Origin: Algoriphagus hitonicola
GTDB taxonomy: Bacteria; Bacteroidota; Bacteroidia; Cytophagales; Cyclobacteriaceae
NCBI RefSeq assembly: GCF_900113375.1
Contig: NZ_FOPC01000001.1
Span: 434,001-498,000 of the forward strand
Length of the DNA stretch: 64,000 nt
Direction: 5' to 3'
Under the pieces are notes generated by a model. The model was not told the origin of the DNA. It ran no database searches and saw only the letters and a list, made by a program, of their open reading frames with translations. Both the position numbers and the translations under genes were made by a program. Every line of letters starts with the position of its first letter. The stretch's first letter is position 1. Shown here one piece after another: positions 45,940-48,189 of this stretch.

Positions 45940-48189
45940 ATGCCGACTAAGCTTTGGTCTTTTATTTTACCATTTTTTCTTTTTTTAGGTTTAAATTACT
46001 CACTGATTGCTCAATGCACGGATTGTGATGTCACGGTAGATGGGAATAACGCACCTGTCGGCACTTTTTCGAATGGAGCGAAAGTTTGTATTACAGGTAA
46101 TCGTACCACTCAGCTCAATTTTAATAATAGAAACAATATTCAAATCTGTATTGCTGATGGATCTTCCTGGAACGGAGATTTTAACCAATTATCCGGCCTA
46201 GGCGAAATTCAAAATTTTGGTTCATTGACCTTTAATTCCAATCCTAATGGAAACTGGACGATCACGAATTATGGATCGTTAGAATTCAATCAAAACCTAA
46301 ATTCCAACAAGACCATCTTTAATTTTGGTCAAATGACCGTGAATGGTGATTTTAATGTGAATTCAAATGCCAGATTTGAAAGCAACGGGACATTTTCGGT
46401 AAGTGGAAATACCAACTTTAACAGTAATGGGAAAGTGGTTTTAGTCGGGGAAACTTTCATAGGAGGATCCGTGGTGGTCAATTCCAATACTGACATCAAA
46501 ATGTCTGGAAATCTTGAAATTTCTGGGGCACTCCAGCTCAATTCCAATAGTTCTATCTCAGGGATTAATTCCAATTTTTGTAATTTATTATCCGTCGGAG
46601 GAGCTTTTTCTAATAATGGTCAAATCAGAGGAAATGGCCTCGAATCACCTAATTCTATATTATATGTAAATAAAACTCCTGGGGGAACGGCACTTTCTGA
46701 AGGTGCCGAAGTGGGTACTTGTCCGGGTTTTGACTGTGTGGAAACCTATTCTGTTACGACTACCAATGGGTTTGATGAAATTTATATTTTTCATTGTTCG
46801 GATATTTTGACGATTCCCGACCTATTGGCAGATGAAGAAATTTTGGATGTTGAAGTTGCTTTGGTAGCTGGAGCTGGTGGAGGTGGTTTTGGTGAGGCTG
46901 CCGGTGGTGGTGGAGCAGGTGGTGTAGTGACGGCGAATGGAATCTCTCTGCAAGTTGGCCAAGTTTATCCTGTGGCTGTAGGACCTGGTGGGTATGGGTC
47001 CAATCAAGCCAATAGTCAAGGCACTAGTGGCTACCCCTCTGTCTTTTTTGGATTGATCGCCAATGGCGGCGGCGGTGGAGGATCACAATCTCAAGCTCAT
47101 AGAAATGGTCTTCCCGGTGGAAGTGGTGGTGGAGCAGGTTCATTTAACCAAGGAAATAATGGTTTCCCAGGAAATGGAGGATCTAGTGCCCTCAATCAAG
47201 GTGGAAATGGAGGAAATGGTAGGGCTCAGAATAAAAACCAATTAGTAGGAGGTGGAGGAGGGGGCGCTTTTCAAGCTGGTCAAGAAGGTAATAATAATAA
47301 TCCAGGAAATGGAGGATCGGGGGTTCCTCTTTCTATTCTAAATGGATTCCCTGCCATTCCCAATGCCTTTGCCGGTGGTGGTGGCGCTACAGGTCGAAAT
47401 CCCGCTCAAGAATACGGTAAAGGCACCGGTGGATTTTATTCTGGTACAAAACTGGGAGGAGATGGAGATCATTTGGATCCCGGGGAATCTGATTCTGATG
47501 GAATCGGTCAGGAAGGTCGTCCTAATACCGGTTCGGGTGGAGGTGCTGGAAGTGTCCGAGGTGGGGCTGGTTCTGCAGGGAAAGTGATAATCCGGATTTC
47601 TTACCGGATTTTGCCCTTGGAATTTTATCGGATTGATGCAAAGTATGACGAAAAAGAGAAAAGTGTTACCATCGATTGGTCCATGTTTGCCCAAGAAGAT
47701 GAATTAAGTTTAACGGTTCAGCGATCTTTGAATCAAACCAAAACTTGGGAGGATATTCAACAGATCGATACCTTGGTGATCGATTCTTCAGATTTGTCAT
47801 TTTCTGTGAAGGATAATGAATTAGGCACAGCTCAGGAGTTGATTTTCTATCGGATCAAAGCGGAAGATTCCAAAGGTAAAACAGGCTATAGCACTTTAGT
47901 TTCCGTAAATCTGCCAGCCCGATTTGAAGGATTACTTTGGAAAGTTTTTCCCAACCCAATAGGCTCATCTGAGATTCAGACTATTCCCACAGGTTTGACG
48001 CGAGAGTTGGAAGATGAGATTGGAATTGCAATTTCTGATTTTTCCGGAAAAACCTTTAGCTTCACTGCAACCGATCACGTGGAATTATCTCAGAAGCTAA
48101 ATGAATATATTAAATCAGTTAAAAAAGGAGTTTATATTCTTCGGCTTTCTGACTCGAGAGGTCAAACTGTAATCAAGCTGATTAAATAA
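45940..48189 (+). CDS. Secreted glycine-rich surface protein with Asn-rich repeats and type IX sorting tail
   Basis: A 749-residue exported protein of unusual build. A signal peptide (ending NYSLIAQ) is followed by about 230 residues of short repeats rich in N, S and G (TFNSNPNGNWTITNYGS, FNVNSNARFESNGTFSVSGN), likely a beta-solenoid. Residues about 300-545 are a glycine-rich domain (VALVAGAGGGGFGEAAGGGG, VGPGGYGS, GGGAGSVRGGAGSAGKVIIR) like those in phage-tail and surface adhesins. An Fn3-like domain (about 550-660) follows. The tail from about 665 (WKVFPNPIGSS to GVYILRLSDSRGQTVIKLIK) is a type A sorting domain for secretion through SprA-type translocons. Its job is probably adhesion or matrix formation; that is inference. 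It is transcribed alone. Confidence 0.85.
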   Translation: MPTKLWSFILPFFLFLGLNYSLIAQCTDCDVTVDGNNAPVGTFSNGAKVCITGNRTTQLNFNNRNNIQICIADGSSWNGDFNQLSGLGEIQNFGSLTFNSNPNGNWTITNYGSLEFNQNLNSNKTIFNFGQMTVNGDFNVNSNARFESNGTFSVSGNTNFNSNGKVVLVGETFIGGSVVVNSNTDIKMSGNLEISGALQLNSNSSISGINSNFCNLLSVGGAFSNNGQIRGNGLESPNSILYVNKTPGGTALSEGAEVGTCPGFDCVETYSVTTTNGFDEIYIFHCSDILTIPDLLADEEILDVEVALVAGAGGGGFGEAAGGGGAGGVVTANGISLQVGQVYPVAVGPGGYGSNQANSQGTSGYPSVFFGLIANGGGGGGSQSQAHRNGLPGGSGGGAGSFNQGNNGFPGNGGSSALNQGGNGGNGRAQNKNQLVGGGGGGAFQAGQEGNNNNPGNGGSGVPLSILNGFPAIPNAFAGGGGATGRNPAQEYGKGTGGFYSGTKLGGDGDHLDPGESDSDGIGQEGRPNTGSGGGAGSVRGGAGSAGKVIIRISYRILPLEFYRIDAKYDEKEKSVTIDWSMFAQEDELSLTVQRSLNQTKTWEDIQQIDTLVIDSSDLSFSVKDNELGTAQELIFYRIKAEDSKGKTGYSTLVSVNLPARFEGLLWKVFPNPIGSSEIQTIPTGLTRELEDEIGIAISDFSGKTFSFTATDHVELSQKLNEYIKSVKKGVYILRLSDSRGQTVIKLIK

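Follow-up and report, generated by a model that had tools for sequence, protein, structure and literature searches.

The window, a stretch of 64,000 nucleotides from Algoriphagus hitonicola (contig NZ_FOPC01000001.1, positions 434,001 to 498,000), carries at positions 45940-48189 of its forward strand a single open reading frame (ORF) of 749 residues, with the ATG at 45940 and the stop codon at 48187-48189. It is kept as one ORF in three Algoriphagus relatives. The product consists, in order, of a hydrophobic leader, Asn-rich repeats of 20 residues, a Gly-rich domain, an Fn3-like sandwich and a type IX (type A) sorting tail. The leader (residues 1-24; 45940-46011, forward strand), recognized by eye, is presumably a signal peptide; the mature protein would begin at Gln25, in line with the Q-rule of Bacteroidetes signal peptides (PMC5837995), and this glutamine is conserved at 90% or more among 32 aligned proteins. 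The tail (residues 669-749; 47944-48186, forward strand) is matched by the NCBIfam model TIGR04183 with 28.8 bits against a cut-off of 23, and by the Pfam tail model PF18962 with 23.6 bits, just below its cut-off of 27. By this tail the protein can be classed from its sequence as a type A cargo of type IX secretion, as the original prediction had it, and it resembles the type A surface proteins of Bacteroidota both in the sorting tail and in the presence of SprA and PorU genes in the same genome. The SprA gene (type IX outer-membrane translocon; TIGR04189, 2443 bits, G000:C10:429684-436538), part of the export machinery and separate from the cargo, occupies positions 1-2538 of the window on the reverse strand and extends past its left edge, the window beginning at 434001. 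The PorU gene (NF033707, 1069 bits) lies on the same contig about 15 kb before the window. The promoter and terminator scan gave values close to those of shuffled sequence, and the search for anti-phage defence gave no PADLOC match.

Residues 25-262 (46012-46725, forward strand) constitute an Asn/Ser-rich region, with 20% Asn and 12% Ser over residues 25-238, to which the Pfam family DUF5649 aligns with 33.9 bits (cut-off 25). The tripeptide NSN occurs at residues 121, 141, 161, 181 and 201, i.e. at an exact spacing of 20 residues, and two further copies, at residues 99 and 210, are out of this register. The self-identity of residues 71-240 at a lag of 20 is 0.21, versus 0.19 at the 99th percentile of the best lag (8-39) of 500 shuffles. 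The full-length model shows a beta-helix, spanning approximately residues 48-232, in which each rung of 20 residues, marked by the NSN step, holds about three short strands, with block pLDDT values of 72-84 over residues 81-190; the solenoid expected from the Asn/Ser-rich repeats is thus supported by the prediction. Comparison of model residues 35-262 by VIA with the parallel beta-helix WceF gave a Z of 10.6 (211 residues aligned, rmsd 4.5), the parallel beta-helix matches comprising 6tgf_D (Z 10.6) and 9rkv_M from the tail fibres of phage 7-7-1 (Z 10.5).

The head of the protein follows. It begins with leading strands at residues 262-300 (46723-46839, forward strand), placed at residues 6-13, 16-23 and 27-30 of the head model m9ad5393a6f43, and continues with the Gly-rich domain at residues 301-556 (46840-47607, forward strand), in which 83 of the 256 residues (32%) are glycine. 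A profile search for glycine-rich tail-fibre domains, suggested with the original prediction, returned the Pfam family Gly_rich_2 (PF21722) with 40.4 bits against a curated cut-off of 24.3, over profile positions 14-225 of 226, and the PHROG family phrog_2295 on residues 75-569 with an E-value of 6e-44. The domain is accordingly listed here, by its sequence, as a Gly_rich_2 member; phrog_2295 matches 31 of the 32 aligned proteins. The names of the two families, 'Glycine-rich domain' and 'unknown function', are silent on function. Among 14 control genomes, that of the archaeon Methanosarcina acetivorans was the sole one in which both PF21722 and phrog_2295 matched.

Conservation within the head is concentrated on glycine: 53 of the 83 glycine positions are glycine in at least 90% of the 32 aligned proteins, versus only 2 of the 173 other positions conserved to that degree, and 75 of the 83 are invariant among the four orthologues. 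The conserved glycines would fit packed extended glycine segments of polyglycine II geometry. The most variable stretch, residues 399-433 (47134-47238, forward strand), is probably a loop, judging from the orthologue alignment and the model; only 7 of its 35 positions are invariant among the four orthologues, it has inserts of 34, 6 and 1 columns and contains all head indel columns among these proteins, and two model blocks within it have pLDDT values of 67 and 59. The orthologue of the metagenome-assembled genome (MAG) MSM8 (L012:4403-6775) has a long Gly-Asn run in this stretch, likely a site of replication slippage.

Tblastn-confirmed searches with the head domain revealed no viral relatives in viral_contigs or the phage collection, where glycine runs are probably masked by low-complexity filtering. 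At least 120 viral stretches were located through a DNA pattern representing the end motif of the domain, and a profile made from the 32 aligned bacterial domains matched 71 of the 80 loci listed, giving 121 viral domain matches with a median of 63.9 bits and a lowest score of 19.9; selection by end motif biases these loci towards profile matches. The profile reported none of 1210 plain shuffles and two of 121 reversed sequences, the latter below zero bits. Shuffles keeping the glycine positions were reported in 594 of 1210 cases. The best of them, at 34.9 bits, outscored the weakest real match, so the glycine register contributes to the profile score and could be sufficient for the weakest matches, whereas a typical match scores higher than it can account for. 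Ninety-two of the 121 matches remained after filtering by length, coverage, score and redundancy; the model of the head was made with the first 76 of these, which come from 48 loci. A fold search of the viral library gave 236 matches at E ≤0.001; the best 50 of these are mostly named glycine-rich domain-containing protein, and many of them come from uncultured Caudovirales phages. On a tree of 108 domains (32 bacterial), with 49 of 105 inner branches weak and an uneven letter make-up, the bacterial and viral labels need two changes versus a mean of 27.8 when shuffled, so the bacterial domains appear as nearly one group; a single old origin or transfer, in either direction, is possible.

The first model, made for the full length from four sequences, had a mean pLDDT of 53.6 and left the Gly-rich part unresolved (20-35 in most blocks), whereas the model of residues 262-562 made with 80 rows, 76 of them viral, had a mean pLDDT of 91.8 and a pTM of 0.90. 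Since the four-row model left the head unresolved, the confidence of the head model rests on the viral homologues. Disorder throughout, named in advance as the outcome that would speak against the original prediction, did not occur. In VIA, the head model matched the Pam3 tail fibre with Z values of 14.8 (rmsd 3.0, 186 residues aligned) and 14.2 and a tail-tip chain of mycobacteriophage Bxb1 (PDB 9d93) with 14.1 (rmsd 3.4, 183 aligned), the three alignments covering 179-186 residues. After the phage chains came twelve entries of the glycine-rich (TG) ligand-binding domain of ALK/LTK (7nx0, 7nx3, 7lir, 7n00 and others), a weak fold match to an animal receptor at Z 6.1-6.9, a range that overlaps a cupin (6.2), with other folds at 5.8 or lower; the ALK/LTK entries aligned over 123-147 residues versus 59-89 for the other non-phage folds (cupin: 76). 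The phage match of the model is therefore well above all other folds, and the ALK match is not so by Z alone. Foldseek against solved structures ranked the Pam3 fibre (E 7.1e-6), the Bxb1 tail tip (9.5e-6) and Pam3 again, the next 12 rows all being ALK/LTK (E 9.4e-4 to 4.9e-2); its TM-scores were low, with TMq 0.36 at best, and the Pam3 superposition had an rmsd of 11.6 over 313 columns. S16 gp38 and antifreeze proteins were absent among the Foldseek and VIA matches listed.

The PDB entries 7ypx and 7yfw, listed as 'Cyanophage Pam3 fiber', are taken to be gp24 of PMC9608196. That source describes TNF-like strands extending into a lattice of stacked glycine-rich segments, with conserved glycines and variable tips, and it proposes that the polar loop tips bind the host receptor. 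The predicted head appears to share this TNF-like/glycine-lattice tip fold, so that the phage-tail-like character originally ascribed to the Gly-rich domain has support at the level of fold. The original remark that the protein calls up no homologue of known role was not supported, as Gly_rich_2 is a named family and a role in phage host recognition has been proposed for the nearest relative of solved structure. The Pam3 fibre differs in belonging to the virion, where it forms a trimer on an alpha-helical shaft, and in having its own chaperone, and the Bxb1 chain is likewise a virion component, whereas in the window the head is part of a type IX cargo, with a beta-helix before it and an Fn3-like domain after it. 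The resemblance to ALK is already pointed out in the Pam3 paper, for the elegans ALK (7LIR), and PMC13243192 (PolyProline Predictor) treats S16 gp38, ALK and sfAFP as glycine-rich bundles. At the level of sequence, membership of the head in the ALK/LTK glycine-rich domain was considered and rejected: the Pfam scan at E up to 10, with filters that drop most weak matches, contained no ALK/LTK family, PDB sequences searched with the four-row profile to the same E limit yielded no ALK chain, and searching solved structures by sequence, with either the whole protein or the four-row profile, gave chance-level matches only.

Residues 557-663 (47608-47928, forward strand) are clearly predicted as an Ig-like beta-sandwich, with block pLDDT values of 72-85 over residues 561-660. 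VIA matched this domain to FN5-FN6 of NEO1 (Z 10.7, 94 residues aligned, rmsd 2.4) and, among further FnIII domains, to Ihog (10.2 and 10.0) and fibronectin (10.0), these being tied with factor XIII, GH2 sandwich domains and other Ig-like folds; the Pfam scan contained no Fn3 match on these residues. The Fn3-like domain anticipated before the sorting tail is thus seen as a predicted sandwich with FnIII matches at Z of about 10 that share their rank with other Ig-like folds.

The named relatives of the protein belong to Algoriphagus (Cyclobacteriaceae), namely A. faecimaris (L011; 73% identity in the best segment), the MAG MSM8 (L012; 87% over residues 1-370 and 79% over the full length) and the MAG CROMO_A_58 (L013; 48%). 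Both flanks of the gene carry the window's genes in A. faecimaris and MSM8 and other genes in the more distant CROMO_A_58; the ten flanking genes scanned in the window (peroxidase, CrtO-type, ankyrin, DUF2254, phosphoesterase, FGAR-AT (purL), FTHFS, alpha/beta hydrolase, TetR and outer-membrane efflux) are of ordinary chromosomal types and include no phage family. Across the genus, a relative of the protein at E ≤1e-10 is present in at least 40 of 59 genomes and at least 37 of the 39 good ones, own genome included, some being matched through the Fn3-like and tail region alone. Of the 19 genomes with no match, 18 are of 2.2-3.4 Mb, most of them less than 90% complete, and one is of 6.4 Mb. A Gly_rich_2-type domain was found in at least 30 of 148 genomes of the family and at least 11 of 198 of the phylum, which are lower bounds, as these multi-genome searches recovered only two of the four domains seen in the own-genome search and missed the one in the window.

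The alignment of 32 rows (A3) is composed of the window protein, its three orthologues and 28 of 49 extracted ORFs; of the 21 left out, two came from genomes already included (L015, L016) and 19 were truncated where the fetched stretch ended, for which reason long proteins are under-represented. Gly_rich_2 is present in all 32 proteins, partly by choice, since 21 of the rows were fetched via the Gly_rich_2 search itself. A region comprising the Fn3-like domain and the tail is common to 31 of the 32, window protein included; among the 28 relatives outside the profile-building set, 27 have this region and 26 the tail by itself. TIGR04183 alone detects 16 of the 32 at E ≤0.01. Because only 12 of the same 28 relatives keep a recognisable solenoid, the N-terminal part is judged, from these alignments, to be exchanged across the wider family. 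Both this exchange and the near-universal Fn3-plus-tail region are independent of the domain-based sampling.

The own genome contains, on contig C17 at about 29-41 kb (L062:7356-19077), a tandem group of type IX-type genes next to rho, recO and tdk-like genes (named by visual inspection), consisting of a 440-residue frame with the Fn3/tail region and two proteins of 485 and 2646 residues, with one and two Gly_rich_2 domains, respectively. In two other genomes (L067 in G040 and L068 in G014), relatives with 35% and 37% identity to the window protein adjoin the same rho/recO/tdk-like group, so the copy in the window may have been relocated to the site beside purL. In several genomes, relatives within the genus sit in open frames of 3856-4409 residues.

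Selection was estimated by simple Nei-Gojobori counts against the orthologues of A. faecimaris and MSM8, where dS is mostly above 1 and the ratios are hence rough; against CROMO_A_58, dS was mostly saturated. The dN/dS values, given for A. faecimaris and MSM8, respectively, were 0.066 and 0.049 for the solenoid (residues 25-262), the lowest of the protein, 0.070 and 0.298 for the 38 codons of residues 263-300, 0.113 and 0.134 for the Gly-rich domain, 0.343 and 0.181 for the Fn3-like domain and 0.108 and 0.176 for the sorting tail. By these counts, residues 25-749 are under purifying selection with respect to both orthologues, and a chance ORF is ruled out because of the low ratios in the solenoid and the Gly-rich domain together with the conserved glycine positions. 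The identities to the same two orthologues are 86% and 89% in the solenoid, 78% and 81% in the Gly-rich domain and 50-69% in the Fn3-like domain and the tail.

A rough probability of 0.55 may be given to the reading that the protein binds a ligand, adhesin being the likeliest kind, and reaches the cell surface by type IX secretion. To judge from the fold relatives and the loop variability, its likeliest role would be to bind a ligand or to adhere by means of the variable loops. The protein would carry a Sec signal and be cleaved before Gln25, pass through SprA, have its tail removed by PorU and become attached to the cell surface, displaying the N-terminal beta-helix, then the head and then the Fn3-like domain as a spacer. 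In the head, TNF-like beta strands would carry a rigid lattice of glycine segments, the conserved glycines holding the scaffold and the variable loops forming the binding face, as proposed for Pam3 gp24. The variability at the non-glycine positions may, alternatively, be drift rather than selection for new binding. Since the head is flanked by the solenoid and the Fn3-like domain and does not form a free end as in a tail fibre, the solenoid could be the binding part instead.

Less plausible, and on balance doubtful, is a matrix or surface-coat protein in which the solenoid and the glycine lattice would be passive stiff blocks of the envelope or biofilm, acting without a specific ligand. The solenoid and the Gly-rich domain are indeed better kept than the Fn3-like domain and the tail, and such a structural role would suit the 2646-residue paralogue with its two domains and the very long frames of other genomes; the nearest solved folds, however, are a phage fibre and a tail tip, followed by the ligand-binding ALK/LTK domains, and the variable stretch is probably a loop. 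It is improbable that the beta-helix is the working part, used for binding or cleaving polysaccharide or for binding ice, with the Gly-rich domain as a spacer. In the solenoid, dN/dS is lower than in any other part of the protein, and its model matches the glycan-active beta-helix WceF, but parallel beta-helices match one another easily, no carbohydrate-active family was found by Pfam, and the solenoid is recognisable in fewer than half of the 28 relatives as against Gly_rich_2 in all 32 proteins, 21 of which were chosen by it. That the protein is disordered and of low complexity, its Gly-rich part being a product of slippage, is very unlikely and largely refuted by the prediction: the poor four-row model and the glycine-asparagine run of one orthologue would suit it, but the 80-row model is confident, most glycine positions are conserved, the dN/dS of the Gly-rich domain is only 0.11-0.13 and the run falls within the variable stretch. 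Least credible of all is an origin by capture of a phage tail-fibre gene or as the remnant of a prophage. Although the predicted fold and the family are common to phage proteins, the gene has a type IX tail, no phage family beside it, the same neighbours in A. faecimaris and MSM8 (not in CROMO_A_58) and a domain that groups with the other bacterial ones on the tree, a recent prophage being in any case unlikely.

A wider and decidedly tentative proposal is that the type IX-displayed proteins form a multi-copy family of Cyclobacteriaceae with heads that correspond, on the cellular side, to the receptor-binding tips of phages. Each head would be a rigid glycine lattice with evolvable loops, by which the bacterium would recognise phages or other cells, and would share ancestry with the domain that binds ligands in animal ALK receptors. 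If this is true, a single fold would be employed by phages to recognise hosts, by animals to receive cytokines and by bacteria for display at the surface. The family Gly_rich_2 is already named and the fold-level resemblance to ALK is in print; what appears new is a type IX cargo family with the Gly_rich_2 domain for its head, as a literature search of open-licence papers showed, among the papers listed, none plainly on a type IX protein with such a head. The compact head, with its confident model, makes the ligand of cellular Gly_rich_2 heads a testable question, and an answer could give a function to a domain named only by its composition and found in the tandem group and in very long proteins of Cyclobacteriaceae. 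In two genomes, a relative of the window protein adjoins a lipoprotein-like frame of 536-537 residues with solenoid-like repeats at its end (L065:7346-9007 and L067:10732-12348, the latter on the reverse strand).
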